A stretch of DNA of 45,512 nucleotides from an uncultured Spirochaetaceae bacterium (GTDB taxonomy: Bacteria; Spirochaetota; Spirochaetia; Sphaerochaetales; Sphaerochaetaceae), in contig CAMDZB010000009.1 in assembly GCA_945910645.1 (NCBI GenBank), positions 1 to 45,512 on the forward strand, read 5' to 3'. The first letter of the stretch is position 1, and each line of letters begins with the position of its first letter. The notes below the pieces were generated by a model. That model did no database searches and was not told the DNA's origin. It was given only the letters and a program-made list of their open reading frames with translations. Position numbers and translations under genes: made by a program. This document shows positions 19,340 through 37,589 of this stretch, one piece after another.

Positions 19340-19773
19340 CTTTTAAAGTCCTCCTTCGTCTCAATCGTTACTCTACGCGCCTTATCCTCATCAATTTCTA
19401 TATTAACATACACTGTATTTATATCGCTGAGGTAGCTCTCAATTAGCTGTGGCCACTCGATACAGATTATACTCTCTGATGAAAGGATGCTCCTTCCGTC
19501 GATGAGTTCAAATTCATCAATTTCGCCAAGCCTATAGAGGTCAAGATGGTAAAGCGGCAGTGTACCATCGTAGTGCTGAACAAGAGTAAATGTTGGTGAA
19601 ATGATGGGCTCACTGATCCCGAGTGCCTCTGCAAGTCCTCTTACAAATACAGTCTTCCCCGCTCCAAGCGTGCCTGTAAGCGATATAACTGTGTTTGGTT
19701 TAAGCGTTTTTGCAAAGGTTGAGCCAAGAGATGTCATCTCATCTTCGTTATGTACAATGTATTCATTTTTCAT
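19336..19773 (-). CDS. tsaE: tRNA threonylcarbamoyladenosine synthesis ATPase TsaE
   Basis: This 145-residue P-loop ATPase binds the TsaB-TsaD complex in t6A formation. Walker A is LTGTLGAGKTVFVRG (about 33-47). ISPTFTLVQHY (switch region) and LYHLDLYRL (Walker B-like Asp) follow, then CIEWPQ. The order and length are typical. Its ATG at 19773 overlaps the stop of the His/Cys-rich TPR gene as ATGA, and it overlaps tsaB by four bases. Confidence 0.96.
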   Translation of the reverse strand: MKNEYIVHNEDEMTSLGSTFAKTLKPNTVISLTGTLGAGKTVFVRGLAEALGISEPIISPTFTLVQHYDGTLPLYHLDLYRLGEIDEFELIDGRSILSSESIICIEWPQLIESYLSDINTVYVNIEIDEDKARRVTIETKEDFKR

Positions 19774-21236
19774 TTTTTTGTAGGCTTCTTTTGTGACTTT
19801 TGTGTAGTTTTAGACTTTGACGTCTTTTGAGCCTTCTCGTGCTCGGTATTATGCTCATGGTCGTGATGATGACCGCATTCGCATTCATGGTCGTGCTCGT
19901 GATGATGACCGCATTCGCATTCATGGTCGTGATCGTGACCGCAACCACACTCATGGTCGTGTTCGTGATCGTGACCGCAACCACATTCATGGTCGTGTTC
20001 GTGATGATGACCGCATTCACATTCATGGTCGTGTTCGTGATGATGACCGCATTCGCATTCATGGCCATGCTCGTGATGATGATCACATCCACACTCGTGC
20101 TCGTCATCTTCGCCTTCAAAGCCGTCAGGATACACAAACTTATCCTTTGAGAGCTGATTGTATACATCAACAAGCATCTTTATGTATGGATCATTCTTAT
20201 CCCTCTCGATAAGTAAATATATTGCCTTCTCGGCCTCTTCTATATCGCTAAGTTCAAAGCACATCATAGCAAGGTTAGACGGATAGATTGTCGACTCATC
20301 ATCGATGTCTACAGCAAGGCTCATGTACTCCTTTGCCCTCTGTTTGTCTCCAATCTCCCACTCAACAAGCGAGAGTTCATTGTAGAGCTCAGCATCGTGT
20401 CCGTCAAGCTTTAGCGCCTTCATCAGGTAGCCCTGTGCCTCATCAAACTTCTTTGCGTTACGAAGCGTCCAGCCGTAGAGAAGGTTGTACTGATAGTCGT
20501 TCTCATGGCTTTTGTAGAGCTTTTTTACCTTCTCTTCAGCCTCATCAAAACGGTTTGTCATCACAAGGTCGTAGATTTCAGATACATTATCCTCATCCTC
20601 GATGTGTTTTTTGCATTTCTGTAGCAGTTTCTCTGCAGGTTTACGCCTTACATCATCATCATCTGCACGTTTTAAGAATGTTTCAAAGTAGTTCTCGGCA
20701 AGTTCAAAGTTGCCCTCTCTAAAATGGAACGATCCAAGCTCAAATGGAAGGTTAACGCTGTCTTTAAATACTGAGTACCCAGCTTTTAGCGTCTCGAGGA
20801 TCAAGGAGTCATACCCATCGTACATCTTCTCATCCTTGTTCTCATACTCCTTGGCTCTATATCCGTATACTGTAGAGAGCATAATGAATGCCTCTTCGAT
20901 CTTTTCAAGGTTAAGCACTGCCTTAAGGAGGGTCTCTGCATTCTCAAAGTCCTTCTTTTCTATGCGTACCTTAGCTGCAAGGAGCATGTTTTTAATAGCA
21001 TCCTCCTCAGAAAGAATTATATCCTTATAATAGTCGAAGTTCTCATCAAGGATGTCATCTTTAAGTCCGCCTTTATGCGAGATTGCATTTATAAGTCCTG
21101 CCTTAATTGATGCTATTGCAACATCGCCGTTCTTCTTATCCTCCTCCGTTCTGATTACAGGAAGAGGTATGGATGGATCTAATGTGAAGTTGCCAATTAC
21201 AAGTGTGCTATCAGGCGGTATTCGTATGTAATCCAT
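19770..21236 (-). CDS. TPR protein with a His/Cys-rich tandem-repeat tail
   Basis: This 488-residue protein has no signal peptide or membrane helix, so it is probably cytosolic. Residues about 85-360 are helical TPR-like repeats (for example AEEKVKKLYKSHENDYQYNLLYGWTLRNA is one helix pair in part). Residues 380-462 are seven units of about 12 residues built on H-E-C-(E/G)-C-G-H-(H/D)-H-(E/D)-H-D. They contain 33 His and 14 Cys. A Lys/Thr/Ser-rich end follows. The tail should bind transition metals; storage, sensing or chaperoning are all possible. I chose the ATG at 21236 (TAATG junction with valS, AGGGAG eight bases upstream) over a GTG at 21245. Partners are unknown. Confidence 0.85.
   Translation of the reverse strand: MDYIRIPPDSTLVIGNFTLDPSIPLPVIRTEEDKKNGDVAIASIKAGLINAISHKGGLKDDILDENFDYYKDIILSEEDAIKNMLLAAKVRIEKKDFENAETLLKAVLNLEKIEEAFIMLSTVYGYRAKEYENKDEKMYDGYDSLILETLKAGYSVFKDSVNLPFELGSFHFREGNFELAENYFETFLKRADDDDVRRKPAEKLLQKCKKHIEDEDNVSEIYDLVMTNRFDEAEEKVKKLYKSHENDYQYNLLYGWTLRNAKKFDEAQGYLMKALKLDGHDAELYNELSLVEWEIGDKQRAKEYMSLAVDIDDESTIYPSNLAMMCFELSDIEEAEKAIYLLIERDKNDPYIKMLVDVYNQLSKDKFVYPDGFEGEDDEHECGCDHHHEHGHECECGHHHEHDHECECGHHHEHDHECGCGHDHEHDHECGCGHDHDHECECGHHHEHDHECECGHHHDHEHNTEHEKAQKTSKSKTTQKSQKKPTKK
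19851..20099 (-). repeat. Seven tandem coding repeats of about 36 bp (His/Cys-rich)
   Basis: Units are 36 bp except one of 30 and one of 39, all in frame, which gives 83 residues. Copies two, three and six encode the same 12 residues. The near identity suggests recent expansion and makes the tract prone to length change. The plus strand is open in two frames here only because of this repetition. Confidence 0.92.
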
Positions 21237-23896
21237 TATTTCCACTCCCTGAGGATTTTAAGTGCAGCCTCAGTCTTTGAAAGCTCCTCCTCAAACTCCT
21301 TCTCTTTCCCACGCTCTTTCTCTTGAGCCTCGGATGATGCCCTCTCAACAAACGATGGGTTTGAGAGCTTTCTCTTTGTGGCATCTAGGCTCTCCTCAAG
21401 CTTAGACTTTTGCTTCTCAAGCTTCCTTACGCGCTCTGTAACATCAATTGTTGATGGAACCTTAATGGAGCATTCGTAGCCCATTTCGCCTGTAAATACG
21501 TAACCTTTCTCAGCTCTTGCATCCTTAAACGTGAGGCAATCAAGATACGATGTCTTAAGGATATACTCCTTCTCACTCTCTACAAATGCACGTGCACTAT
21601 CATTAAGAGTTACGCTTATAATTGCAGATGTCTTCTCACCCTCGTTGATGCCTAACGTTGCCTTTAATGAGCGGATTGATGTGATGATCTTCTCAAGAAG
21701 TTCAACGCTCTCCTCTGCACTCTTATCAATGGCGTTTTCATCCGCTTCCGGATAGTGCTCCTCAATCAGGTAGTTGCACTTTTTATTAGGAAGCGATGCA
21801 TAGATCTCCTCAGTAACAAGAGGAACGATAGGATTCATGAGTATAAGCGTCTTATGAAGCACATCAAGTAGTATGCTTATAGTCTCGTTCACTACCTTTT
21901 TGTCACTGCTCTCTAAAAACAGCTTTGAACGCTCGATGTATACTGAGCAGAAGTCGTTCCAGAAGAAGCTGTAGATTGCGCTTGCAGCATCGTTGATCTT
22001 GTATGAATCGAAGCTGTCCCTCATCACCTTTATTGTCCTATTAAGGCGTGAATAGAGCCACTTTGACCAGGTGTTCTTCTCGATTTTTGACACATCCTGT
22101 AGCTCCTTGCCATCAAGGTTCATAAGAAGATAGCGTGATGCGTTCCATACCTTGTTGCAGAACTTACTTCCAAGTTTGAAGCTGTTCATATCAATCTGAA
22201 TGTCCTGACCCTGGGATGCCATAAAGCCTAGAGTGAACTTCATTGCATCAGAGCCGTACTCATTCACAACCTCGATTGGATCTATGCCGTTTCCGAGACT
22301 CTTTGACATCTTTCTGCCCTTCTTGTCCCTCACAAGCGAGGTGATATAGATGTCTTTAAACGGCACCTCACCTCTGAACTCAAGGCTTGCCATAATCATT
22401 CTAGACACCCAAAAGAAGATGATGTCATATGCTGTAATTAAGGCATTTGTCGGGAAGAACGTCTCAAGATCCTTTGTGTTTTGAGGCCATCCAAGCGTAC
22501 TGAACGGCCAGAGCCATGACGAGAACCATGTATCAAGAACATCCTCATCCTGTTTAAGGTGTGTACTTCCGCAATATGGACATTTGGTAGGATCTTCGCG
22601 TGTTACTATAACCTCGCCGCAGTCGCTACAAGTCCAAGCAGGTATGCGATGCCCCCACCATAGCTGACGTGAAATACACCACGGTCTTATGTTTTTCATC
22701 CAATGGATGTATGTGCTCTCCCACTTTTCAGGATAGAACTTAATGTCGCCTTTCTTTAGTGCATCAAGTGCCTTTTGAGCCATTCCATCCATCTTTACAA
22801 ACCACTGTTTTGAAAGATATGGCTCGATTGTAGTTCCACATCTATAGCAGTGTCCAACCTCGTGTGAAAGTGGCTTTTCTGAAATTAAGAAGCCCTTTTC
22901 TTTAAGTTCCTCAACAACCTTTTTCCTTGCGCTTTCTACATCAAGGTTCTGGTATTCCTTAGGAACATTTGAGTTAAGAGTACCATCAGGATTTAATATG
23001 TTGATCTTCTCAAGGTTATGCCTCTCTGCACATGCGTAGTCATTAGGGTCATGAGCTGGTGTGATCTTAACAGCACCTGTTCCAAACTCAAGGTCCACAA
23101 ATGAGTCTTGTACAATCTCAATCTTTCGTCCAACAAGCGGAAGGATTAGCTTCTTTCCAACAAGGTTCTTATACCTTTCATCCTTAGGATTTACAGCAAC
23201 AGCCACGTCTCCAAACATTGTTTCAGGACGCGTTGTTGATACTGTTACGTATCCACTTCCATCTTCAAGCGGATATCTTATGTCCCAGATGAATGAATCT
23301 ACGTTTGAATACTCAACCTCATCATCAGAGAGTGCAGTTCCGCAGTGTGGACAGTAGTTTACAAGGTACTCACCCTTATAGATGAGCCCTCGCTCATAGA
23401 GTGTTACAAAGCATTCTCTTACGGCCTTTGAAAGCCCCTCATCCATGGTGAAGCGCTCGCGTGACCAGTCGCATGAGGATGCGATCTTTTCAAGCTGTTT
23501 TTTAATAATGTCGTGGTGTCTATCCTTAACGCTCCAGGTCTTTTTTAGGAATTCATCACGCGTCATATCCTTACGGTGCTTTCCTTCCTTCTCAAGTTCA
23601 ACCTCAACAACATGCTGAGTTGCAATACCTGCATGGTCTGTTCCTGGAAGCCAGAGTGCCTTAAATCCTAGCGCTCTTTTATATCGTATGATGATATCCT
23701 GTAGTGAGTTGTTCAAGGCATGCCCCATGTGGAGGATGCCTGTGACGTTTGGTGGTGGCATAACTATGGTAAATGTCTTGCCATTTGTGTCCCTCTGGTT
23801 GTCAGGATTGTAGTAACCTTTGTCTTTTAATTCGTTGTAAATTCGCTCTTCAAAACTCTTTGGAGAATATACCTTCTCAAGCTCAATATTTTTCAT
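21236..23896 (-). CDS. valS: Valyl-tRNA synthetase
   Basis: This 886-residue class I synthetase charges tRNA-Val and edits mischarged threonine. The HIGH-type motif is in PPPNVTGILHMGHALN (about 40-55) and the KMSKS loop is GRKMSKSLGNGIDP (about 515-528). The CP1 editing domain has STTRPETMFGD and GTGAVKITPAHDPND. Zinc-type CxxC pairs are present (CSDCGE, CPYCGS). The C-terminal 70 residues form the usual coiled-coil arm. I chose the ATG at 23896, ten bases after the rpe stop, where the family N-terminus (IELEKVYSPKSFEERIY) begins. An earlier TTG at 23932 would overlap rpe. Its Shine-Dalgarno is weak. Confidence 0.97.
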   Translation of the reverse strand: MKNIELEKVYSPKSFEERIYNELKDKGYYNPDNQRDTNGKTFTIVMPPPNVTGILHMGHALNNSLQDIIIRYKRALGFKALWLPGTDHAGIATQHVVEVELEKEGKHRKDMTRDEFLKKTWSVKDRHHDIIKKQLEKIASSCDWSRERFTMDEGLSKAVRECFVTLYERGLIYKGEYLVNYCPHCGTALSDDEVEYSNVDSFIWDIRYPLEDGSGYVTVSTTRPETMFGDVAVAVNPKDERYKNLVGKKLILPLVGRKIEIVQDSFVDLEFGTGAVKITPAHDPNDYACAERHNLEKINILNPDGTLNSNVPKEYQNLDVESARKKVVEELKEKGFLISEKPLSHEVGHCYRCGTTIEPYLSKQWFVKMDGMAQKALDALKKGDIKFYPEKWESTYIHWMKNIRPWCISRQLWWGHRIPAWTCSDCGEVIVTREDPTKCPYCGSTHLKQDEDVLDTWFSSWLWPFSTLGWPQNTKDLETFFPTNALITAYDIIFFWVSRMIMASLEFRGEVPFKDIYITSLVRDKKGRKMSKSLGNGIDPIEVVNEYGSDAMKFTLGFMASQGQDIQIDMNSFKLGSKFCNKVWNASRYLLMNLDGKELQDVSKIEKNTWSKWLYSRLNRTIKVMRDSFDSYKINDAASAIYSFFWNDFCSVYIERSKLFLESSDKKVVNETISILLDVLHKTLILMNPIVPLVTEEIYASLPNKKCNYLIEEHYPEADENAIDKSAEESVELLEKIITSIRSLKATLGINEGEKTSAIISVTLNDSARAFVESEKEYILKTSYLDCLTFKDARAEKGYVFTGEMGYECSIKVPSTIDVTERVRKLEKQKSKLEESLDATKRKLSNPSFVERASSEAQEKERGKEKEFEEELSKTEAALKILREWK

Positions 23897-23906
23897 AAAG
23901 ATAATC

Positions 23907-24563
23907 TTATATTCTTGAGGACAATTTTTCAACGAAAAGGCGTTTATCTTCAGCTTTTACAAAGGATGAGCCTGTAACAAGGATGTCAGCACCGTTCTTT
24001 TTAAGAATTTCAGCATTGCCCTCGTTAACGCCTCCATCCACGGATATTTTAAAATTATAGTTCTTATCCTTTCTGATCGCATTTAAAAGGGATATCTTAT
24101 CAACGCTGTTATCAATGAACTTCTGCCCGCCATACCCTGGGTTTACGCTCATTACAAGCACAATATCAACCATATCCAACACGGGTAAGAGAGATTGAAC
24201 AGGAGTTGATGGAACTATGCTGATTCCTGCCATCTTATCCTCATCCTTTATCATCATAAGAGCCCTGTTTACATGAACTGTACTCTCAAGATGAATCGTG
24301 ATTGCATCAGAGCCCGAGGATGCAAAATCCTTAATGTGAGTCTCAGGATGATTAACCATAAGGTGAGTGTCAAAAAACAGCCTTGAATACGGACGTGAAT
24401 CCTTGATCAACTGCGCTCCAAACGTGATTGGAGGCACAAAGTTTCCATCCATCACATCAAGATGCACCCATGGCGCTGTACTTTTAGAAATAGTATCCAA
24501 AGCTCTGTTAATATCATTGAACTTAAAAGCAAGAAGTGATGGTGATACTATTATTTTACTCAT
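23907..24563 (-). CDS. rpe: Ribulose-phosphate 3-epimerase
   Basis: This 218-residue TIM-barrel enzyme of the pentose phosphate pathway interconverts ribulose 5-phosphate and xylulose 5-phosphate. Family motifs are VSPSLLAF at the N-terminus, HLDVMDGNFVPPITFG (metal-binding His and Asp), THLMVNHPE, VMSVNPGYGGQKF and the phosphate-binding SVDGGVN and VTGSSF. AAAGGAG lies six bases before the ATG at 24563. It is the first gene of rpe-valS-TPR-tsaE-tsaB-ABC-ABC and is preceded by an unusual short leader. Confidence 0.96.
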   Translation of the reverse strand: MSKIIVSPSLLAFKFNDINRALDTISKSTAPWVHLDVMDGNFVPPITFGAQLIKDSRPYSRLFFDTHLMVNHPETHIKDFASSGSDAITIHLESTVHVNRALMMIKDEDKMAGISIVPSTPVQSLLPVLDMVDIVLVMSVNPGYGGQKFIDNSVDKISLLNAIRKDKNYNFKISVDGGVNEGNAEILKKNGADILVTGSSFVKAEDKRLFVEKLSSRI

Positions 24564-24568
24564 CTTTT

Positions 24569-24612
24569 ACTCCTTTAAAAGAAGGAGTGACTCATCGCCA
24601 CTCCTTTAAAAT
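24569..24612 (-). promoter_or_regulatory. Switch-like leader: duplicated RBS, six-codon ORF and alternative hairpins before rpe
   Basis: The sequence between the giant gene and rpe holds two copies of TTTTAAAGGAGT, each followed by GATGAGT. The second is the rpe start. The first drives a mini-ORF, MSHSFF (24595-24578, TAA at 24577-24575), with five-base spacing; its stop overlaps the rpe Shine-Dalgarno. Inside it CACTCCTT (24582-24589) can pair with the first Shine-Dalgarno (24599-24606, 8 bp). Alternatively ACTCCTT can pair with the second (24569-24575, 7 bp, six-base loop). The first hairpin followed by CTTTT could also be a weak terminator for the giant gene. Confidence 0.6.
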
Positions 24613-27600
24613 TTACTTAAGTTGAGTGTTGCTCAACACAACTGTGTATTTAAGATTACTATTCAAGTTCGGAATAGTATACGTCTTAATTCCAGTTCCT
24701 GAATTGTTGGTACCTTCAAGCGCGAAGAAGAGGTTTGTATTTGGCTTGAGGGCCTCTTTTCCTGAAATCTTGCTATAAAGGTAATTTGCGCTATCCGTTC
24801 CTGTTACTGTGTTATACACATATGGTCCAATTGTTGGAAGACCTGCAGCACTTGAGTACATCAGACCAGTCTGATCAGCAAGTGCATGTGTAGTTGTCGG
24901 AGTTATGGTACTTGCGTGGCGTGGAAGCGTCATCTCAGTTCCATTCTTATAGATGTAGTATGCAGAGTAATCAAGTGATGGAATCTGACGTGTAGGTGTT
25001 GTGTCTGTTGTGATCCATGTGTTGTTGCCATTCAACTTGTATGGAATAACCGTGTTCTTATCAGCAGACAGAAGTACAGCAACACCCCAGTTTCTTACAA
25101 GCTTATCCCATGTAATCTGATTCTCAGGCGTGAGGTTCTTGTTGATTGCAGAAACGATAATTTCCTTAGAATGTGTAACCCTGTTGTTTGCACCCTCTTG
25201 AGATGATGTGATTGTTTTGTAATCTAGAGTAGAAGCATACTCGCTAAGAATAGAGTTGTGGTATTCCTTGATGAACTTGTAGCCGTAGTTTCTCACAAGG
25301 TATGAACCAAATGAGTATCCAAGACCACTTGCTGTGCTACCATAAGAAGTCTCGTTTGCAGGACGGCTTAGGCCTGGAACATAGTCGAGTAGATCGTACC
25401 TCTGGTTTGCTATATAGTCTACAAGAGCACCCTTAGTTGCAAGGTATGATGTATTTGATGTCTCTGTTACATAAGTACCCTTTGATACATCGTTATTACT
25501 TGGACCTGAAATTCCAACAGCCTTTGCAACAAGATCAAATGCAAGTGATTCAAACATATCCTCAACAAATGCATCATAACCTGGTGCTTTCTGTACAATG
25601 TTATTGCTTTCAAGCGTATAACCCTTACTGATCACACGCTGATATGTATGAATAGCCTTTGTAAGCGCTTTGGCCATACCCTCAAGGATCTCACTGTACT
25701 TGCCTTCATCAATATAATTCGTATTGATAATAAAGCAGAGACCCTGGTTTGTATACTTGTATCCTGGCGTATATGTTCCTGCACTATAGTTATTTATAGG
25801 AAGACGTGCATTGTCAAACGAGAAGTACACAGCAGGTGCAGAAGGATAGTTGAGAGGCGTAAAGTATAGAACAAGACCGTTTGTACCGTTGTATGACTGT
25901 GGGTTAGAAACAGCTGTGAACGGTGGAATAAACATACCGTTTGATGAACCACTAACAGCATTCATTGCCTCTGTAGTCCATGCTGATGAGAAGTCGCCCC
26001 ACTCGTTGCCGTACACTGGTGCAATTATGTTGTAGATTGTAGCAAAGTCACGTGCAACCTGTGTAACCTTTATGGCATTGCTTCCTGTACCAAATGATTC
26101 AGTAGTTGAGTTATATGTGTTATTTGGCGTAGGATCAGTCTGCTTATAGTCTACAACCACATAGAGTGTTCTTTCTCTTCCGTCTGCACCTGTTAGTTTT
26201 ATCTTTTCACTTGTATCAGAATCTGTAATTCCAACTTTCTTTGTGCTGTTATAAAGAAGAACAGCTCCTCTCTTCTCAAAGGCGCCTATAGCATCAGTTG
26301 GTGCCCAGAGTCCAACTCCATCGTCTGTCTTTACACCACCAACCTCAGTATATGTTCCAAGGTTAACGCTGTCCCCTACTTTCATAGCTTTACCCTGTAC
26401 AGTATTTCGCTCGTATGGGTTGAACCATCCAATCACAGTACGTGCTCCACTATTTGCATAAGGAATTGGGACTGTCTGTGTTTGAGTGAAGTTGAAGTCT
26501 ATTCCACTTACTGTGCTTGGGGCGCTGAATAGAGACATTGTTGATGATGTAGAAAGGATCGGCGCAGTAATATTGTTATTTGACGTATTTGTAACAACAA
26601 GGTATGGATAAGCTTTACTTGAGCCTAAGTTCACATAGATCTTGTTACCATCATAGTATGCCTTGTCATTTGTGAGACCTGTAGGCGTTACCGTCTCAAG
26701 TGAAGGAAGCTCTTTAAACTGTGCATAAAGAGTTGTAAGAGGATCAATAGGACGCCATGTTGAGTTAATGTACGTCTCTGATTTCTTCTCAAGAGACCAT
26801 CCGAGGAATTTCTTACCAAATTTAAAGACATCCTGATCACTTGTGATAGAAAATTCGGGAGTTTCACTCTTTGTCCATACAAGATCATTTGTTATCCAGT
26901 CTTCTGTTAGAGTCATTGTAAGCCATGGAGAGAGGATATTACCATCCTTATCAATAAACGGCGACTTTATAGCCTGACCTTGAGCATCAGTTGTTGTAAT
27001 TGTATATCCGTCTGATGTCCATGAAGCTGTCATGTTTGCAGGTGGTGTAACTCCCTGCTCCTGAGTGTCAAATGTCACAAGTGCAGTACGCTGAGGAATG
27101 TATGGAAGCTTTGTGATCGGAGTGCCAGCTGCAGCCTCATCTGCATACCACTTACCCTCTCTGTTATAGATCTTAGTTAAGAGCTGTGATGTGTTTGTAG
27201 CAAGGTTAGTCTTGAGCGTCACCGACTTAAACACCCTCACCCAGCGTGGAAGGAGCGTAATATCCTTTGTAGGTCTATACTGTGTGCCAGGTTCAACTAC
27301 GTTAGTTGAGTCAGACTTATCATACCACTCATCGATACGGTAATCTTTGCGTGTAATTAAAGAATCATCTGGCGTTACAATTGCCCTCTGCTCATCAGAC
27401 CAGTCAACTGTAGCCTGAGAATCCACAGTAATTTGACCTATAAAACTACCCTTATCATCAATAACCGTGCTCTTAGCACCAGTTAAGGCATCAGCAATCG
27501 AGTAGCCCTTGAAATCATAGGCTGAGACCTGAGTTGTAGAGAACCCTTCTGGAATCACAACACCATCTGATGTTGAGATTTCATATGTCACCTTGTACTC

Positions 27601-30600
27601 ACGCTTTGGAATATCAATGGCTTTTATTCCATTAGTTGTGGCTCTATCAAGATACCAACCAGTACCCATCTTGTAGTAAACTACGCTTGTGTTACCCGTT
27701 GATGTTGCATAAGGCGTATTGAGTACAAGCTGAAGAATCTTCGGACTCCAGTTTGCATAGAATGTCATATCACTCTTAATGAGGGCGGCAGAATACTCAC
27801 TCCCTTCAAGAATAGAGGTTCCATTTCTATCGGCGTTATCTGACCATCCGATGAATGTGTATCCTGGAGCTCTTGATGAGACAATAGGCATCCTAATGCT
27901 CGATTGGTCACCCCACTTTACGTTGAGAGTGAGGTCGCTTGTGATTCTATATCCTGTCTTGAGTACACCATTTTCATCAATTACTGCATCAGTGTTTGCA
28001 TAATAACCTGTAAATGTGTATGTAGATCTTAAAGGATCAACCGTGCTTGGTGTTGCTATTTCTTTACTCTCCGTTGAGTTTCCATATTCAAGATTGAATG
28101 AGATAACATACTCTCTTCTTGGAGTTACAATGGCCTCAAATGTGCCATCTGCTAACTTTCCAAGAGGCTGAGTCTTTTCCTCATCCTTATACCATCCGCC
28201 TACGATTACACCGTTACGTGGATACTCAGTTTCGTAGTATAGAGCAACTGTTTGATCTGTTGATGTTGCAGTGCCAGATGTGGACAATTCAAGCTTGTAT
28301 GTTGCAGAAGTCCAGATAGCATAGAAGTTGACTTCGTTAGTCTTCCTGTCTTGATCATCCTTAGTTCTGTCGTCATCCTTAACCTGATACTTGCTTTCAA
28401 GCGTTACGTGTGGAGTTGTAGCCTTTGGATCTATATCCCAACCTACATGTTGAAGTCCCTTCTCTGTAAGGTGAGGAAGTGTAAGGTGAGGAAGTGGATT
28501 CTTGTCGTTTTCAACATCGCCCCACTGAACTACGGCAGTGCTATCTTCTTTGATCCTAAGGTTTCTGATCGATGATGAATCGTTGATTGTGACGCTATCA
28601 TCAGGTCCGTTTGTAAGCTTATATCCCTTGAATTCAAATTCAACGCTGACGCTGTCAGGATCTGTTGTGATAATATCTGACTTGTCATCAAGAGACTCAT
28701 AGTACTCCTCAAGGTTTCTATGATACTTCACAGTCCAAACCTTTCTTGGTCTTACAATTGAGACAACCTGTGATGTACAAGCCTCATCTGTATACCACCC
28801 TACGTTGTACTTGTAGTAGATAGCATCAGTAAAGCCTGTGTTTGTTGCATCCACAGCCTCAAGTGTGAGCTTATAAACCTGTGGCTCCCAGATTGCGTAT
28901 AGCGTAATATCTAGTGTTGATGTAGGCTTATATCCACCGCTGATTGCAGTTGTTGCATTTGGAGCTTCTGCCCATCCCTTGAACTTGTAGTACCACCCTG
29001 CAGGAACCTGAGGAATATAGTCAGTAAGTGTCAAGTCAATGGCTGTAGGAGCTGGTGCAAATGTTGCGAGAGCTACAACGTTTGATGTAAGTTCTTCACT
29101 ATCTGGCAAGACTAATACACCTGAGCGCTCAACATATGTTTTACTGCTGTTGCTCTTATCAACATAACCCTGGAATGTCCAGTTCACTTTAGTATCAGGA
29201 ATATTTATGCCTCCGAGAGTTTCATCCTCACCTTTGAGGTTGAGATCGAACTTGATCCTTGTCTGTTTCTTTGGTAGCTTATCAGAATCAATTCTATCAG
29301 TTTCTAAGATAGGATTTCCGCTTTCATCAATACTGTTATACCATCTCTTACTTTGATAATACACTGATGTCTGATATGGATATGTGAGTGCTCCTGTGGA
29401 TGGATCAATCGTTGGGTAGTCTGTTGAGTCAGGGGCTGTGAGAGTTAAAACATATATTGTTGATTTACCCTTAAGGTCATAGATTCTATTCTCACCAACG
29501 TTGTCATCAATAGGTTCATCTGGTAATTTGTTTCCACTTGAGCCCCATTGCCAGCTCATATTCTCAAGACTTTCACCTTGAATTTCTGGGAATTGAGGGA
29601 ATTTGGGGACATCAGATTGTGTATCTGCAAACTTAACGATAAGTGAGGTGTGCTCGGAAATCTCATAGTTCTGCAAGTTAAGACCGCTATCAATTACAAG
29701 CTGCTGTCCAATTGATGAATCAGTAGGAAGAGCGCTATTCTGATCTTGCACAAAGCCTTCAAGAGGATAATTAACATATTTGGTCAAGTCAGAATAAATA
29801 GTATTGTTGTATCTGAACTGAATTGTATATTTTTTCTCAGGAAGGATTGTCAATACATCAGCAACGTTTGTAATATTATTACCACTCACTGCATCTGCTG
29901 CAACTGTCCTGTACCACCCTGTCCCTGTCTTATAGTAGATAGTATATGACGGTTGAACCTCCGTTGTGTTAGTTCTACCAAGGAGGTTGAGATTTAAAGC
30001 ATATACTCCCTTTTCCCAAACGCCATAAAGGTTGAGCACAGCATTTGGTGTTGCAACAGCAGGCTTAAGCTCAAGCCCCTTTTCATATGTGACTCTAGAA
30101 GCACCTTCTTGAGGAGGCGTATCTGACCAGCCTTTGAATATGTATCCTTTCACGCTGTATCTATCTGCGTCAGCTTCTCCTCCTGCCAGTGTGACAGATG
30201 CTTGATCACCCCAGATTGGAGTTACAGTAATATCACTGCTGATTACCTTACTAAGTGTTCCCTTGCCATTTTCATCTATGTAGTTGTCAGATCCGTACAT
30301 CAATCCCCTTATTGGGAATTCAGAGAGTACAGAATCTTCTGTTATAGTTGTTCTTCCAGGAGCCTGTACACTGTAATTGATTGTAATGTACTTACGTGGA
30401 AGCTGAGGAACGATATAGCCATTGCCATCTAATGTACAAGTCTGTGTGCAGGTGGCATCTTTAAACCAGCCCTCACCTGTCTTGTACCAGAGGTTCTGTG
30501 TTCCCTGTTTGATAATGTTTTCATTTTCACCAATTTCGTAAGGAGCACTTATTGTAAGTTTATATACATTAGCCTTCCATGATGCATAGAGTGTTGTAGT

Positions 30601-33600
30601 CTCCTTATTAGGAACAAATGTACCGGTGATACCGATTGTAGCGTTAGCATTTGCAGACCCTATTGGCTGTTGTGTCTCGCTCCAGCCGACAAACTCATAG
30701 CCTGTCCATTCAGGTTTTGGATTTGGAAGAGTTACACCTACTGCATCGCCCCATAGAGCGTATACTGTGGTATTGCCCGAGACTTTAGCACCTGTGGCTA
30801 TAGTTCCATCTGCGTTAATTATATTGCCATAGCCCTTGAAAGTCCTCTTTGTTTCAACAGGAGTATATGTTGGTGCCTGTGTAGTTGTGTATTGCCCGTT
30901 TACATCCTTAGCAGAATTGTAGTTGAATTCAAAATTTACTGTATATTTATCAACAGGAGCACCAAGCGATGTGACAATGTGATTTGCTAATGCTGCATCC
31001 CTATACCACTCTCCGTCTCCTACATTATAATATATCTTGCTAATACTATTGCTATCATCTAATTCATCAGATGGTGTTTCGCCATCTATTGATATTGGTG
31101 GATCTAACTTTACCTCGTATACATTAGGCTTCCAAACAGCATAAAGAGTTGTATCTGTAGACTTAAGGTTGCCAACTTCAGTATCACCGCTGATTGCATC
31201 AGCCTTGTATGTAGGATCATCAAGCTTGTTTGAAGACTCATCCCACCCAAGTAGGTTATATCCAACCCTCTTAATACCATTAATATTAAAGCTTACAGAG
31301 TCGTCAAACTTTGCGTATGCCTTAACATTCGCCTGAAGATTATTTGCCACAATCTCGAGCGTCTTAGTATCATCTGAGTATTTTACATACTCTGTATTTC
31401 CATCCTGCGATGTGAACGCCGTAAGACGAGCCTGACGAGATGGAATCTGTGGAGGATAGATCGTGCTATCCTTTGTGTTAAGCTTTAAGCTGTATGTCTT
31501 TTGAACCACATTAGACTCAACTGTAGTGACAGGATTCTTCAACGTGCTGTCGCTGTAGTACACTCCGTTTTTGTAGTAGAGCGTCTTTTTAAGCGTTGGA
31601 GTGCCAGTTGTGGTGTATTCATCGTAGAGCTCAAGCGTATATGTCTTATACTCCCATACAGGATATATATTAATATTGTTAGATGTAGGAACAAATGAGA
31701 GTGGCTGTTTGATTATGCTTTCCTGATCAAATCCGTTGTCGTTCTTAAGCGACCAGCCTTTAAACACCTTCTGTGATGGATCTTGAGGTACAGCATCTAG
31801 AAGCCCAATAGGCGATGGGGATGTGCTCCATGATGCCTTTACAGTTTCATCCCCTGTTATTGAAAGTCCTACAACACTTCCATCAGCAGGTATGTATGGA
31901 GGATAACCCATGAATGTAAATCTAGACTGATATTGCTTTGTGCCTTTATCACCATCTACAGTATCGTTACCCACGACTGCGTTTACAATCCAGACCTTTT
32001 CAGGAAGTGGACGACCCCTTTTTGGGTCTTCCTCACCATATTCGCCTATAGTTGGGAATCCAGGTTCGTCCGAAGGTAGATAATCGCCATTTTCAGTCCT
32101 TTCATACCATTCCGTTGTACCTGGTTTGTTGTAGATTTCTGTGTATATTCTATCAATGTTAGTTGCGCCGTTTGGGTCGAGCGTGAGCTTTGTGTATGGG
32201 ATTTCCTTCCACCACGCATGAAGAGGAGGATTATCATCTACACCAGGCTTATATGGGAATGTAACAAAATTAGTAACTCTTTCACTAGTATCCCCCTTTG
32301 CTGCTGTCGCCCATCCTTGGAAGATATGGCCATGCCATTCAACCTCTGGGGGTGTTTCAACGCCTACTGAACTATCCTTATCCCAGTTCAATTTTGCAAG
32401 AGAATCCTCATATATTTTTACAGTTGATAATATTGCACCCTTACTGTTGATTACTTCTTCCCCGTTGACCGTATAATTCTTAAACGAATATGTTACTGGA
32501 ATCTCAACATCCGGTTCATCATCTTGACTATCATTATTTTCTTGAGCAGCATCAGGTTCACTCTCAACAAGTGCTCCACCATCTATAAAGAATTTGACAT
32601 TAAATGTTTGCGATTGAATATCTGAGAGTGAAATGAAAGGTGTTGATGCTTCTTCTTCTTTAAACCAGCCTGCGTCAGTTTTATACCATATCTTGTATGG
32701 ATTGCCGCTTTCATCAACAGTATTTTCAAGTGTTAATGCAGAGACTTTTGCCACCCAATTTGGATATAAAATAATGTCTTTATTCTCAGTGGATACGAGT
32801 TCTACAGCCTCGTCAATTGATGTGACTATATTTACTCCGTTTGCTGTTTTCCATGATTCGTATTTATAACCCTTTGTAGATGCTAGAACTACACTTTCAT
32901 CAGGAAGACCTTCATCGTAAGTGCCATCTACACTAAATACTGGTTTTGCGGTGCAAGACTCTGTAATTTTAACATCATCTTTGATACTTCCGTCTGCGTT
33001 TGTTAAATCATGTCCGTCCTCACCATATATATACTTCTCAAAAGCATAGTTAACTATAACATCATTAAAGGCGCTACTATCAAGAAGGTTTGGATATGTG
33101 TCGTTTGGATCTTTGAGAGCAAAGTAAATTGTATATTCTTTCTTAGGAAGTGTTTCTTCAACTCCAGTTGAAGAATCTACAACAGACGTTAAAATTGATG
33201 TTATCTTATCTCCTATGCAGTCTGCATTTGTATACCAGCCGTCGTTTGTCCTATACCAGATAGCCTTGAGTGTGTTATCTTTTGTTGCATCCCCTTTCTC
33301 AAGTGACACCTTATATACATTTGGAGTCCAGTATGCATAGTATTCAAGATCGCTTTCAGGCTGTTCTTTGGTGATATCAACGATTGTTGAACTTGCAGTT
33401 GGATTTACATCCGTAGTCCATCCCACAAATGTATATCCACTTATTGTTAGTTCATCGCTTGTATATGCGCCCTTAAGTGGAGAGCCGCTCTGCCATTGTG
33501 CTACAGCTTGGTTAGACTCTTCAACGCGATGCTCCTCTATTGAAATAGAGCCACCCATGAATTTACCATCTCTTGAGATAAACTCTTTTCCATCAAGCGT

Positions 33601-35754
33601 ATGCCCATAATATGCTTTAGAGTATATTTCTTCTTTTGTATCTTGTATATTTACTTCAGCTTTTACTGCTTCTGGAACATTTAAGTGATATGTTACTGTA
33701 TATGAGACAGGATCTAATGATAGACCACTTTCACTATTAAATATTGGCTCATTGTTATTAATCACATTACTAGAGTTGTCGTCATCAAAAAACCATCCGT
33801 TGTTTTTAGAATAATACAGATAGCCAGGTGTATTACTTGCATCCTTCACTCTATCAAGTTTTAACATAAGAAGATCCGTTCGTACCCAAACTGCTTCATA
33901 GTAAACAATGTAGTTCTCTTCAACCCACTTACCTACATCCTTAGCAGGTTTTTTTACAGACGCATCTGCTGCGTTCCAATTGCTCTTAATTTTCCAGTTG
34001 TCGCCATCAAGAATAGTTTTAGCATCTTTAGGGACATAAGCATTCCATTCAACAAATGTTGAGGAGGTCTTGCCTATGGCCATGTTTTCAACATAACCTG
34101 GAATGTCGATAGCATAATAATCTTTCCATACTGCATTAAGAGTATATGGACTTGTACCATTTGCGACGATGCTATTAACAGTGCTGTTGGATGCAAGGTA
34201 TCCGTCCGCTCTGACAATAACTGTTTGGTTTTCATCTGTAGCCTTATATGACTCGAATGTGTATGTGTAGTCTATTTTTCTGTGCTTCGATGTATCAGGA
34301 ACGCCTTGAAGATTGTAGTTGAAGACTGATGTATACACCTTTGTTGGCAGTTCAATCTTTTCAATCTTATTCTCAGCGCCTAGATTCTTGTCACTATACC
34401 AGCCGTGATCTTTCCAGTAGTAAGCAGTAGTTGTGCCTTTTTCTGAATTTTCTGTATTTGGAGTGAAATTGAATTCATATACCTGGCTCGACCAGACAGC
34501 CTTGAATGTTATTGTGTCGTTTTGTACATCTGTATCTTCAGGATCAGGTGTATATGAACCTTTTAAGTTTGTGCTGTCTTCTTTTCCTACTATTTTCCAA
34601 CCCTCAAATGTATATCCGTTTGGGACGATAGGTTCTGGCAATGTTAATGGCGATGCCGTCCAAGATGCCACTAGTGTAACATCCTCCATTATTGTCTCCA
34701 CAAGTTTACCAGCTCTATCTATAGCGATGACATCAGGAGCGCCTTTTTTATAAAAACCCTCAAGGGTAAATGAGTATGAAGTCTTTTCTTTTCCTTGGAA
34801 ATTCTTCTTTGTTTCATAGAAGTCATTGCCGCTGAACTCAGGAACATTCAAGTCAAAGTTGATTGTTCTTTTCTTTGCGACTTTGTTTACATCAACAACT
34901 GTATCGCCTGAAAGTTTATTACTTTCCTCAACATCTTTTGACCAAGAATTATTGCTTGTGTTGTAGTAAAGAGTGATATAAGACATCGATGTTGCATTTT
35001 TGTAGTCAAACGTAACCTTGTGATTGCTGCCCGATTTAAGCATTGCTGTTAGTGTAACAACTGATTTTTTTGGCTCATATATTCCAGTTGCAGAAACTGC
35101 CTCTGTTAAACCACCATCCAAAGACCAGCCTACAATCTGGATAACCGATGTAGAACCTGAAGTGCTCGAATCAAGGCCTGCCTCTTTAACGACCTTACTA
35201 AGATCGATAGCACTTCCCTCATTAATTGGCATGGATAAAACTGCCTCAACTTTTACAGGAGAAGCACTTTTTGGTTCATTTATTTTTGCTCTCTGAGTAT
35301 CAATCTTACCATCAGCCTGAATATACTTTACTCCGTTTACTGAGTAACCTTGGAATGTGTAATCAGCGTTCGTAAGAGTTCTAGGAGCTGGTTTTTTTGC
35401 TGTTGACAATGGAATTGCAAATGAAATCGTATTGCTTTTTTCAGGAAGTGTGATTGCGCTTGTCGCTGGCTTGGTTCCCTTTGCATCAGTATACCAAACG
35501 CCAGGCTTGCTCTCATCAACATCGCCGTTTTCCTGATAAACAGGCTTGTAGTACAAAGCTCTTGTACCCTGCTTGGTGACGTTCTCATCATCTGACGTGA
35601 GAATAAGCATGTGTATTCCTGAACCTTTTTCTGGCTCCTGAAGCGAAGCTCCAGATCCATTATTGCCAGAGTCTTTCCCGCCTTCTGTGTTACAGCTAAA
35701 CAAAAGAGTTGCGACAAGTAAAAGTGGTAGAATGTATTTTGCGATTCTTTTCAT
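24613..35754 (-). CDS. Giant lipoprotein with about 16 InlB-type repeats and an M30-peptidase-like C-terminus
   Basis: This 3713-residue protein begins with a lipoprotein signal (KRIAKYILPLLLVATLLFSC, Cys 21 the lipidation site). About 16 divergent composite repeats of some 185 residues fill residues 47 to about 3015. Each has a GY-F-GW module ending in Y-A-W, and a module with YYK-G-GWY-D, P-K-YT and F-GY. These resemble the InlB B-repeat (Listeria-Bacteroides) family, small beta domains on surface proteins. From about 3195 to 3560 the sequence recalls M30 peptidases (LYVVVDYKQ, FATIYNIIAPVYG, SFGSYLVRNYG). The HExxH position reads TKAIH (3365-3369), so catalysis is doubtful. It has its own promoter. 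AGGAG is 11 bases from the ATG, and a nearer out-of-frame ATG competes. A role in adhesion or as a surface scaffold is inferred. Confidence 0.85.
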   Translation of the reverse strand: MKRIAKYILPLLLVATLLFSCNTEGGKDSGNNGSGASLQEPEKGSGIHMLILTSDDENVTKQGTRALYYKPVYQENGDVDESKPGVWYTDAKGTKPATSAITLPEKSNTISFAIPLSTAKKPAPRTLTNADYTFQGYSVNGVKYIQADGKIDTQRAKINEPKSASPVKVEAVLSMPINEGSAIDLSKVVKEAGLDSSTSGSTSVIQIVGWSLDGGLTEAVSATGIYEPKKSVVTLTAMLKSGSNHKVTFDYKNATSMSYITLYYNTSNNSWSKDVEESNKLSGDTVVDVNKVAKKRTINFDLNVPEFSGNDFYETKKNFQGKEKTSYSFTLEGFYKKGAPDVIAIDRAGKLVETIMEDVTLVASWTASPLTLPEPIVPNGYTFEGWKIVGKEDSTNLKGSYTPDPEDTDVQNDTITFKAVWSSQVYEFNFTPNTENSEKGTTTAYYWKDHGWYSDKNLGAENKIEKIELPTKVYTSVFNYNLQGVPDTSKHRKIDYTYTFESYKATDENQTVIVRADGYLASNSTVNSIVANGTSPYTLNAVWKDYYAIDIPGYVENMAIGKTSSTFVEWNAYVPKDAKTILDGDNWKIKSNWNAADASVKKPAKDVGKWVEENYIVYYEAVWVRTDLLMLKLDRVKDASNTPGYLYYSKNNGWFFDDDNSSNVINNNEPIFNSESGLSLDPVSYTVTYHLNVPEAVKAEVNIQDTKEEIYSKAYYGHTLDGKEFISRDGKFMGGSISIEEHRVEESNQAVAQWQSGSPLKGAYTSDELTISGYTFVGWTTDVNPTASSTIVDITKEQPESDLEYYAYWTPNVYKVSLEKGDATKDNTLKAIWYRTNDGWYTNADCIGDKITSILTSVVDSSTGVEETLPKKEYTIYFALKDPNDTYPNLLDSSAFNDVIVNYAFEKYIYGEDGHDLTNADGSIKDDVKITESCTAKPVFSVDGTYDEGLPDESVVLASTKGYKYESWKTANGVNIVTSIDEAVELVSTENKDIILYPNWVAKVSALTLENTVDESGNPYKIWYKTDAGWFKEEEASTPFISLSDIQSQTFNVKFFIDGGALVESEPDAAQENNDSQDDEPDVEIPVTYSFKNYTVNGEEVINSKGAILSTVKIYEDSLAKLNWDKDSSVGVETPPEVEWHGHIFQGWATAAKGDTSERVTNFVTFPYKPGVDDNPPLHAWWKEIPYTKLTLDPNGATNIDRIYTEIYNKPGTTEWYERTENGDYLPSDEPGFPTIGEYGEEDPKRGRPLPEKVWIVNAVVGNDTVDGDKGTKQYQSRFTFMGYPPYIPADGSVVGLSITGDETVKASWSTSPSPIGLLDAVPQDPSQKVFKGWSLKNDNGFDQESIIKQPLSFVPTSNNINIYPVWEYKTYTLELYDEYTTTGTPTLKKTLYYKNGVYYSDSTLKNPVTTVESNVVQKTYSLKLNTKDSTIYPPQIPSRQARLTAFTSQDGNTEYVKYSDDTKTLEIVANNLQANVKAYAKFDDSVSFNINGIKRVGYNLLGWDESSNKLDDPTYKADAISGDTEVGNLKSTDTTLYAVWKPNVYEVKLDPPISIDGETPSDELDDSNSISKIYYNVGDGEWYRDAALANHIVTSLGAPVDKYTVNFEFNYNSAKDVNGQYTTTQAPTYTPVETKRTFKGYGNIINADGTIATGAKVSGNTTVYALWGDAVGVTLPNPKPEWTGYEFVGWSETQQPIGSANANATIGITGTFVPNKETTTLYASWKANVYKLTISAPYEIGENENIIKQGTQNLWYKTGEGWFKDATCTQTCTLDGNGYIVPQLPRKYITINYSVQAPGRTTITEDSVLSEFPIRGLMYGSDNYIDENGKGTLSKVISSDITVTPIWGDQASVTLAGGEADADRYSVKGYIFKGWSDTPPQEGASRVTYEKGLELKPAVATPNAVLNLYGVWEKGVYALNLNLLGRTNTTEVQPSYTIYYKTGTGWYRTVAADAVSGNNITNVADVLTILPEKKYTIQFRYNNTIYSDLTKYVNYPLEGFVQDQNSALPTDSSIGQQLVIDSGLNLQNYEISEHTSLIVKFADTQSDVPKFPQFPEIQGESLENMSWQWGSSGNKLPDEPIDDNVGENRIYDLKGKSTIYVLTLTAPDSTDYPTIDPSTGALTYPYQTSVYYQSKRWYNSIDESGNPILETDRIDSDKLPKKQTRIKFDLNLKGEDETLGGINIPDTKVNWTFQGYVDKSNSSKTYVERSGVLVLPDSEELTSNVVALATFAPAPTAIDLTLTDYIPQVPAGWYYKFKGWAEAPNATTAISGGYKPTSTLDITLYAIWEPQVYKLTLEAVDATNTGFTDAIYYKYNVGWYTDEACTSQVVSIVRPRKVWTVKYHRNLEEYYESLDDKSDIITTDPDSVSVEFEFKGYKLTNGPDDSVTINDSSSIRNLRIKEDSTAVVQWGDVENDKNPLPHLTLPHLTEKGLQHVGWDIDPKATTPHVTLESKYQVKDDDRTKDDQDRKTNEVNFYAIWTSATYKLELSTSGTATSTDQTVALYYETEYPRNGVIVGGWYKDEEKTQPLGKLADGTFEAIVTPRREYVISFNLEYGNSTESKEIATPSTVDPLRSTYTFTGYYANTDAVIDENGVLKTGYRITSDLTLNVKWGDQSSIRMPIVSSRAPGYTFIGWSDNADRNGTSILEGSEYSAALIKSDMTFYANWSPKILQLVLNTPYATSTGNTSVVYYKMGTGWYLDRATTNGIKAIDIPKREYKVTYEISTSDGVVIPEGFSTTQVSAYDFKGYSIADALTGAKSTVIDDKGSFIGQITVDSQATVDWSDEQRAIVTPDDSLITRKDYRIDEWYDKSDSTNVVEPGTQYRPTKDITLLPRWVRVFKSVTLKTNLATNTSQLLTKIYNREGKWYADEAAAGTPITKLPYIPQRTALVTFDTQEQGVTPPANMTASWTSDGYTITTTDAQGQAIKSPFIDKDGNILSPWLTMTLTEDWITNDLVWTKSETPEFSITSDQDVFKFGKKFLGWSLEKKSETYINSTWRPIDPLTTLYAQFKELPSLETVTPTGLTNDKAYYDGNKIYVNLGSSKAYPYLVVTNTSNNNITAPILSTSSTMSLFSAPSTVSGIDFNFTQTQTVPIPYANSGARTVIGWFNPYERNTVQGKAMKVGDSVNLGTYTEVGGVKTDDGVGLWAPTDAIGAFEKRGAVLLYNSTKKVGITDSDTSEKIKLTGADGRERTLYVVVDYKQTDPTPNNTYNSTTESFGTGSNAIKVTQVARDFATIYNIIAPVYGNEWGDFSSAWTTEAMNAVSGSSNGMFIPPFTAVSNPQSYNGTNGLVLYFTPLNYPSAPAVYFSFDNARLPINNYSAGTYTPGYKYTNQGLCFIINTNYIDEGKYSEILEGMAKALTKAIHTYQRVISKGYTLESNNIVQKAPGYDAFVEDMFESLAFDLVAKAVGISGPSNNDVSKGTYVTETSNTSYLATKGALVDYIANQRYDLLDYVPGLSRPANETSYGSTASGLGYSFGSYLVRNYGYKFIKEYHNSILSEYASTLDYKTITSSQEGANNRVTHSKEIIVSAINKNLTPENQITWDKLVRNWGVAVLLSADKNTVIPYKLNGNNTWITTDTTPTRQIPSLDYSAYYIYKNGTEMTLPRHASTITPTTTHALADQTGLMYSSAAGLPTIGPYVYNTVTGTDSANYLYSKISGKEALKPNTNLFFALEGTNNSGTGIKTYTIPNLNSNLKYTVVLSNTQLK
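25077..26170 (-). other. M30-like (pseudo)peptidase domain of the giant lipoprotein
   Basis: Residues about 3195-3560. The order of elements follows my memory of M30/hyicolysin-type proteins: a strand LYVVVDY, a helix with FATIYNIIAPVYG, then FIINTNYI, the would-be zinc helix ALTKAIHTYQRV, and a second helix EDMFESLAFDLV. YSFGSYLVRNYGYKFIKEY comes last. Only the second His of HExxH is retained (His 3369); Glu 3402 sits where a third ligand could be. Assignment rests on pattern memory, not a search. Confidence 0.45.
26708..35615 (-). repeat. About 16 divergent InlB-type protein repeats
   Basis: Boundaries are approximate. I counted the marker (Y/W)Y-x-(K/N)...W(Y/F) about 16 times, beginning with LYYKPVYQENG and ending with KIYNREGKWYADE. 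The copies differ strongly in sequence and in insert length, so the array is old and not a recent DNA-level duplication. A near-copy motif, WGD followed by a GY-F-GW module, marks most joins. Confidence 0.85.
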
Positions 35755-35802
35755 ACAGCATAGTTCTCCTAGATTAAACCAAGATCAAGATACATATTTA
35801 TA

Positions 35803-35831
35803 AATATATATAATTACAAGCAAATTGTAAA
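35803..35831 (-). promoter_or_regulatory. Promoter of the giant lipoprotein gene
   Basis: Minus-strand TTTACA (35826-35831) and TATATT (35803-35808) are 17 bases apart in a very AT-rich stretch. The start would be about 40 bases before the ATG. The remaining gap to the upstream transporter gene (35832-35891) has only a weak AAAAGA/TCTTTT palindrome and no strong terminator. Confidence 0.6.
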
Positions 35832-35891: not shown

Positions 35892-37589
35892 TTACTTGCT
35901 GAGCTTTGCGTAAGTCTGAGCAATGTTAGTGCAGAAGTCGCCGATGTGTTCAAGCTGACGCGTCATATCAAAGAGAAGAAGCTCCTTTTGTATGTTTTCG
36001 CTCGTCTCCTTCATTCGCTTTTCAACGTAGGAAACAAGGTTGGACCTCTCCTTGTTGATCCTATTTTCAAACTCATATGACTTCATCAGATCCATCTCTT
36101 TGACGTTAGTCTTGATGTGCACGCTGATAAACTCAAGGTAAGATGTCACCATGTCGATATAGTACACGATGCGGCTCTCAGCCTCTGATGAGAACACATA
36201 GCCTTCCCTTGAGCGCTTCTCTGCATCGCATACGAGGGTATAACAGCTGTCTGTGATGGACTCAAGCTCGTCAATTCCACGTATGTAACCTGTAAGGTTA
36301 TTAACAATGCTGCTCGATGGAGACTGCTTCATAAGGTCAACGCAGATTGATGTTAACACCTCCTGCATCTCATCGGCATAGTTCTCATCATCCTTCATCT
36401 TTTGAACAAGGCTCTTAAGCTCATCCCCGTGGAGGAACAAGGAGCTCTTAAAGCTCTCAAGCATCTTGAGCGCAACCTCAGAGAGATGCCAAACCTCATC
36501 CTTAACAGCGCCAAGGTAGAGTTCAGGCGCCTGGGAGTACGAGATTGCAGATGAGATTGAAAAGGCGTACTTCTTGTGTCCCGTATCGCTCTCTTTTTCA
36601 GGGATCATACGTTCAATGAGGCGCGAAAGCTGATTTACAAACGGGAAGAAGATAACCGTATTAAGTAGGTTGAACACAGTATGGAACATAGAGAGGAAGA
36701 ACGGAAGGTTATGGGCAAGGCTCGCCCCTGACTCTGTAAAGATGTTTCCCGGCGTGATGTAGTTCACAAGAATCATCAGCGGCTTTAGGAAGATTAGTGC
36801 TATCACGCTTCCTATCACGTTAAAAAGCATATGAGCCATAGCCGCCCGCTTTGCATTCACATTCGTGCCGATTGATGAGAGCATGGCTGTGACTGTGGTA
36901 CCTATGTTTTGCCCAAGACAGAGCGAGGCTGCCGCATAGGGGCCAATCCACCCATTGAACGCAAGCATGATGGTAAGCGTCATTGTGGCTGCAGACGACT
37001 GTATTATCGCGGTGAGGGCAAAGCCTATAAGCGTACAGAGTATCATGTTGATCACGGTAGGCTCACCTATCCGCCGTGTAAATGAGAAGAAATCCACGTT
37101 TGTATCAGGGCTCGGGATGGCACCTTGAATAAAGTACATGCCTAAAAACAAGAGCCCTAACCCTACGAACACATCCGTGAGGTTCAGAAGCTTATCCTTC
37201 TTTGCAAAGAGAAGCGGAAATGATATAAAAAGCAACAAAAATGCGCAAAGTGTGAGGTCAAATTTAACCCCGAAGATGGAAACAATCCATGCAGAAACTG
37301 TGGTTCCTATGTTTGCACCCATTATCACGCTGATGGCCTGGGGCAATGTGATAAAACCCGCATTTGAAAAGCCAACAACCATCACAGTAGTTGCAGACGA
37401 GGATTGCACAAACGCTGTGATTACAAGGCCTGTAAGAACGCCCGTAATTCTATGTTTAGTCATAAGATGGAGAATGTTCTCCATCTTCTTTCCCGCAACC
37501 TTCTGAAGACCACCGGAAAGGAGCCTCATGCCGTAAATAAAAAGGCCAATGCTACCAAGAAACTGAAGGACTGACGCAATAACTTTCAC
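35892..37589 (-). CDS. Na/Pi cotransporter II family protein with PhoU-like domain
   Basis: This 565-residue inner-membrane protein has about ten membrane helices (residues 1-320) with the two inverted family signatures: QSSSATT (62-68) and QSSAATMT (about 197-204). These form the substrate and sodium site in the NptA/SLC34 family. Residues about 350-565 are a helical cytosolic PhoU-like tail ending in a typical LLFDMTRQLEHIGDFCTNIA helix. It probably takes up or balances phosphate with Na+. It starts 17 bp after the coaD stop and may share that transcript. The giant gene follows after 137 bp with its own promoter. Substrate is inferred from the family. Confidence 0.92.
   Translation of the reverse strand: MKVIASVLQFLGSIGLFIYGMRLLSGGLQKVAGKKMENILHLMTKHRITGVLTGLVITAFVQSSSATTVMVVGFSNAGFITLPQAISVIMGANIGTTVSAWIVSIFGVKFDLTLCAFLLLFISFPLLFAKKDKLLNLTDVFVGLGLLFLGMYFIQGAIPSPDTNVDFFSFTRRIGEPTVINMILCTLIGFALTAIIQSSAATMTLTIMLAFNGWIGPYAAASLCLGQNIGTTVTAMLSSIGTNVNAKRAAMAHMLFNVIGSVIALIFLKPLMILVNYITPGNIFTESGASLAHNLPFFLSMFHTVFNLLNTVIFFPFVNQLSRLIERMIPEKESDTGHKKYAFSISSAISYSQAPELYLGAVKDEVWHLSEVALKMLESFKSSLFLHGDELKSLVQKMKDDENYADEMQEVLTSICVDLMKQSPSSSIVNNLTGYIRGIDELESITDSCYTLVCDAEKRSREGYVFSSEAESRIVYYIDMVTSYLEFISVHIKTNVKEMDLMKSYEFENRINKERSNLVSYVEKRMKETSENIQKELLLFDMTRQLEHIGDFCTNIAQTYAKLSK

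Follow-up and report, generated by a model that had tools for sequence, protein, structure and literature searches.

The 11-kb gene described here encodes a 3713-residue lipoprotein that, on the reading we prefer and to which we give an even chance, is a lipid-anchored stalk that carries a non-catalytic head, derived from an M30 peptidase and binding a ligand, within a lineage-specific repertoire of stalks and interchangeable heads. The gene lies in a window of 45,512 nucleotides, which is the entire contig C9 of a 1.15-Mb genome (G000; 33 contigs, 96% complete) of an uncultured Spirochaetaceae bacterium. The features of the locus, all placed in window coordinates, are as follows.

24613–35754, minus strand: InlB-array lipoprotein gene with a degenerate M30 C-terminal domain; single open frame of 11,142 nt, 3713 codons, ATG start
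35692–35754, minus strand: lipoprotein signal peptide and lipobox, LLFS followed by C (C21); direct sequence reading
35620–35691, minus strand: short Gly/Asn/Ser tether, aa 22–45 (~25 residues); direct sequence reading
26716–35619, minus strand: 16 composite InlB-type units, aa 46–3013; segmentation, PF09479 and TIGR02543
24616–26667, minus strand: M30 (hyicolysin-type) peptidase-like C-terminal domain, aa ~3030–3713; homology to a sister-species lipoprotein
25657–25671, minus strand: zinc-motif position, HEFQH in relatives and KALTK here (aa 3362–3366); 37-sequence alignment
25558–25560, minus strand: conserved downstream Glu (WxNE) replaced by Asp (aa 3399); alignment
35803–35831, minus strand: promoter-like TTTACA-17-TATATT (10/12) upstream of the giant gene
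35766–35769: Shine-Dalgarno-like GGAG, suitably spaced from the giant-gene ATG
24576–24606, minus strand: intrinsic-terminator-like hairpin followed by UCUUUU, after the giant-gene stop (-15.9 kcal/mol, z -4.1)
35892–37589, minus strand: Na/Pi cotransporter-type gene, the upstream flank in transcription order; its 69% identical orthologue lies directly upstream of rpe in the sister species G001
23907–24563, minus strand: rpe-like gene, the downstream flank in transcription order, with a 67–68% identical orthologue in G001

The N-terminus of the giant protein, MKRIAKYILPLLLVATLLFSC, carries a lipobox signal in which MKRIAKYILPLLLVATLLFS precedes C21 of the 3713 residues; the lipobox itself (LFS and C, aa 18–21) was identified by eye. 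A plus-strand reading of 24613–35754 contains many stops and was rejected. The initial annotation had described, with no strand given, a 3713-residue lipoprotein with about 16 InlB-type repeats, standing alone with its own promoter among housekeeping genes. The open frame, the lipobox at C21 and a count of exactly 16 units agree with the first part of this description. The second part holds at the locus, where housekeeping flanks, a promoter-like site and a terminator-like hairpin are present, but not genome-wide, where at least four other arrays occur. Promoter-like sites in the region are at chance level (29 observed versus 30.8 in shuffles). The GC3 of the giant gene is 0.34 versus 0.42–0.56 in seven neighbours; the other array genes of the genome also lie low, at 0.32–0.42, so the low value is partly a trait of this gene class.

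Segmentation at a recurrent closing strand (LYAxW) divides aa 46–3013 into exactly 16 units of 169–202 aa (~186). Their InlB-type character, previously proposed from the letters, was borne out by profile searches: PF09479 (List_Bact_rpt/InlB-type) matched the whole protein at E 2.4e-17 (63.2 bits, cut-off 27) and TIGR02543 at E 6.9e-7 (29.5 bits, cut-off 20.95), while 12 of the 16 units matched PF09479 singly at E<=1 (best 7.5e-8), the Pfam model spanning ~40–65 aa of each ~186-aa composite unit. The units are divergent, as had also been stated, with pairwise identities of 14–29% (mean 21%), and the best match of most of them is a unit of G001 and not another unit of the same protein, which suggests that their divergence predates the species split. 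The absence of DNA-level tandem repeats within the gene, apart from one 15-nt pair, indicates that the array is old and not a recent tandem expansion. The two-unit AlphaFold model is all-beta (mean pLDDT 75, pTM 0.59) and gave no significant Foldseek match in the PDB; the InlB B-repeat 2y5p (E 1.5) and MucBP 3nz3 (E 0.3) were among the weak matches. Sequence searches of the PDB returned nothing useful, and an initial scan of public genomes with the whole giant protein found no matches.

The array is followed by a non-repeat domain of ~684 aa. Only one relative of this domain was found in the 101 genomes searched, in the sister species G001 (35% identity, E 3e-22). It is a 637-aa lipoprotein that matches Peptidase_M30 (PF10460) at 2.5e-20 and carries AHEFQHAIHYY...WVNEM; the homology extends over ~650 aa, and in the alignment the corresponding stretch of the window protein reads MAKALTKAIHTY...FVEDM. 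PF10460 was not reached by the window protein alone, and no PF10460 match was found in the window genome. Scanning named genomes for M30 relatives recovered 80 loci, the majority in Spirochaetota, Campylobacterota and Chloroflexota, and a profile built from the named relatives scores the window head at E 1e-89, with the window protein itself included in that alignment. A Pfam search with the C-terminus alone gave EF-G-binding_N at sub-threshold level only, which was rejected as a chance match.

H353, E354, H357 and E390 are nearly invariant in the 37-sequence alignment, and all four are replaced in the window protein: the two zinc histidines by lysines, the general-base glutamate by alanine and the downstream glutamate by aspartate. 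HExxH is kept in every complete relative recovered, the exceptions being the window protein and fragments (contig ends, broken frames), in a sample that is not fully unbiased since the HExxH motif fell within one of the two search patterns, which nevertheless allowed the K/A/K version as well. The contrast between these relatives and KALTK plus Asp implies that the head is a pseudo-protease of M30 descent. By contrast with the four catalytic residues, G240, A352, I359, H360, Y462, G474 and R479 (P0004 numbering) are strictly invariant, the window protein sharing them by definition. Since these positions are retained and 3713 codons remain open, the fold rather than the catalysis appears to have been kept, and the residue pattern is that of a pseudo-enzyme rather than of a decaying gene. 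In the AF2 model of the head (pTM 0.70, pLDDT 61), the segments that align with the HExxH helix and the next helix of M30 relatives are helical; Foldseek against the PDB gave no significant match, with several zinc metallopeptidases among the weak ones. The fold of both array and head thus rests on sequence homology. The earlier view of the protein as a mere repeat fibre is not borne out, as the chain ends in a degenerate protease domain.

The giant protein has company. At least four other lipoproteins with InlB arrays are encoded in the window genome, and three of them have recognisable tips. These, together with a related gene of the sister species, are listed below.

G000 C1, 5.6–17.4 kb: array lipoprotein, 3912-aa frame, BspA LRR end (LRR_5 4.9e-16)
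G000:C11, L160:1079-7963, minus strand: array lipoprotein, 2295 aa, six InlB-type units and then long BspA LRRs (7.7e-73)
G000 C3: array lipoprotein, 1478 aa, FGE/SUMF1-like (sulfatase-modifying-factor-like) end (2.6e-6)
G000, C1 end and C7 start (L015, L012): array lipoprotein split over the two contigs, with an exact 55-nt overlap and units 60–74% identical
G001:C17, L115:3023-7204, minus strand: 1394-aa lipoprotein combining a single InlB-type unit with an M9-collagenase-like zincin at the C-terminus (HEYTH intact, 8e-7)

The exact overlap suggests that C1 and C7 are probably adjacent and that the gene was broken by the assembly within near-identical repeats. G001 has further array lipoproteins, with FGE tips at 4.8e-18 and 7.1e-10, and the M9-type head of its 1394-aa lipoprotein is apparently an active enzyme, as judged from its intact motif. 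Full-length unit matches at E<1e-20 were confined to G000 and G001 among 139 family genomes; at E<=1e-3, 40 of the 139 had unit matches, including these two, beyond which the matches were only weak, at the level of Flg_new. The InlB-array lipoproteins therefore look like a lineage-specific set of stalks with interchangeable heads, and the presence of at least four more stalks with other end domains in the same genome makes the giant protein look like one entry in a modular surface display set.

The sister genome G001 is collinear with the window across ~12 genes (44–84% identity). The giant gene is absent from the collinear site there: only ~10 nt separate the stop codon of the transporter gene from the start of rpe, so the locus is not conserved. 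Either the 11-kb gene is thus an addition to this site in G000, or G001 has lost it. The transporter-rpe adjacency was not found outside the genus in 30 loci examined, so that other genera do not favour either gain or loss. In G001 the M30 lipoprotein gene sits between clpB and leuS; no M30 gene was found at the leuS region of G000. An assembly artefact was considered and rejected, because gene order on both sides matches an independent assembly, in which homologues of array and head alike occur, and the open frame is accordingly taken as genuine. The occurrence of the same repeat type in other genes of that assembly, with most units closer to those of the sister species, further supports an old repeat family. 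Between the giant gene and rpe (window 24545–24613) the ribosome-binding site and start of rpe recur in nearly identical form (TTTTAAAGGAGTggcGATGAGT / TTTTAAAGGAGTaaaaGATGAGT). The terminator hairpin includes the first copy, and the near-duplication could be the footprint of a gene gain or loss event.

Omp85, a diderm marker, is present in the window genome, and the host is thus a diderm. Flagellin was looked for in the same genome and was not found; aflagellate spirochaetes reportedly exist, as in Sphaerochaeta (Caro-Quintero 2012, cited in PMC5595309). The host's family includes genome G018, which matches the deposited Spirochaetales bacterium SM3-B16.1. Two other proteins of the host were recorded. 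A TPR-type protein (window 19770–21245, minus strand) has a His/Cys/Glu-rich tail, HECxCGHHHEHD..., with 36-nt tandem repeats (tandem-repeat tract 19861–20104); the residues of the tail look metal-binding, and the collinear orthologue in G001 is shorter (open frame of 419 versus 495 aa). A long ORF on G000:C1 (L129:6683-9499, minus strand) has HEVVH near the start of its visible part; its repeats resemble beta-propellers and its C-terminus that of outer-membrane proteins, a combination that would fit a possible peptidase-plus-barrel surface protein.

If the giant protein is exported and lipidated, the array would act as a stalk that extends to something like 100 nm (a very rough figure, assuming 6–8 nm per unit) and holds the head off the outer membrane for surface display. 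The head would no longer cut and would still bind: the retained M30 substrate cleft or a neighbouring surface may hold a protein or peptide ligand from the host mucosa, a diet particle or neighbouring cells. The stalks of the genus differ in their C-terminal heads (BspA-type LRR, sulfatase-modifying-factor-like, M9-type zincin), which would make the tips exchangeable. Surface exposure is reported as the default for Borrelia lipoproteins, though not as a general rule among diderms (PMC11784454). The long lipid-anchored surface fibre in a diderm that the initial annotation had suggested is thus upheld in part: the lipobox, Omp85 and the transcription-unit features are consistent with it, with surface location predicted, but the M30-derived head makes the protein more than a fibre.

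The main rival to a stalk with a binding head assigns adhesion to the repeats. Each unit would weakly bind a glycan or a host or diet surface, the array would provide avidity, and the M30 relic would be a passive cap without function. Proteins of the Flg_new/List_Bact_rpt type are over-represented in bacteria and archaea associated with the gut, and an adhesin-like role has been proposed for them (PMC9723798); moreover, the wide divergence of the units suits multi-specific binding, and sister-species genes pair the repeats with other tips. However, several array genes of the genus carry recognisable C-terminal domains, which suggests that the tip matters, and many conserved positions are kept in the M30 tip, so that we consider the explanation rather unlikely. 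Still less probable, in our judgement, is a periplasm-facing scaffold or spacer reaching from the outer membrane to the peptidoglycan or the inner membrane. While a lipobox was seen with no surface-export signal, and many diderm lipoproteins do face the periplasm, an extended chain of 16 units is probably far longer than the periplasm is wide, and the known examples of InlB-type repeats and BspA LRRs are mostly on cell surfaces.

The loss of the catalytic residues, together with the absence of the gene from the site in the sister species, could also be taken as decay, the gene being a fusion of InlB array and M30 protease, now without function and in the course of elimination. This is highly improbable in view of 11.1 kb free of frameshift or stop, an intact terminator-like hairpin, retained non-catalytic conserved positions and the recurrence of the same gene class in the genome with open frames. 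A head that remains enzymatic, through an unusual metal site or a different chemistry, would fit the homology retained along the domain and the altered ligands of a few zincin-like families; yet replacement of the zinc histidines and the general base by Lys, Lys and Ala, and of the downstream Glu by Asp, makes this scarcely credible. Returning to the lipid-anchored stalk with a non-catalytic head, its parts can be compared with known systems.

Adhesin-like proteins of gut microbes with PF09479/TIGR02543 repeats resemble the giant protein in being extracytoplasmic and built of tandem copies, and the Flg_new signature occurs in most units here; in contrast to them, the window units are composite (~186 aa) and present in 16 copies with a putative pseudo-protease tip, and the anchor is a lipobox instead of cell-wall or archaeosortase sorting. 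M30 (PF10460) lipoproteins of Spirochaetota and Campylobacterota share whole-domain homology over the C-terminal 684 aa and, in many cases, a lipobox-like motif, whereas the window head lacks HExxH and the downstream Glu and is placed after a 3000-aa array; the closer complete M30 relatives recovered measure ~530–880 aa, and none matched the array profile. With BspA-type LRR surface proteins (PF13306) the connection runs through the sister stalks of the window genome, which share the stalk design and end in an LRR domain; the window protein itself has no LRR. Pseudoproteases such as the iRhoms (PMC6451368, PMC3149277) are likewise relatives of proteases that have lost catalytic residues and for which a binding role is proposed, but the window head has an unrelated fold and a different membrane setting, in a bacterial stalk protein, and its role here is a prediction.

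Tentatively, and at somewhat below an even chance, a single genus of spirochaetes, in which the window genome is small and flagellin-negative, would possess a modular InlB-array display platform with interchangeable LRR, SUMF1-like, apparently active zincin and dead zincin heads, and here a former protease head would serve as a pseudo-protease receptor at the end of a 400-kDa lipid-anchored stalk. Such a protein would show concretely how heads can be exchanged, and an enzyme turned into a binder, on giant bacterial stalks; architectures of this kind are usually studied in sortase and autotransporter systems, and the window stalk lies outside both. For ORFs of this type, the plain-repeat-fibre reading would be corrected by the information in the non-repeat tip. 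It also becomes testable which part of an InlB-array protein binds, and how a diderm without flagellin may hold its position.
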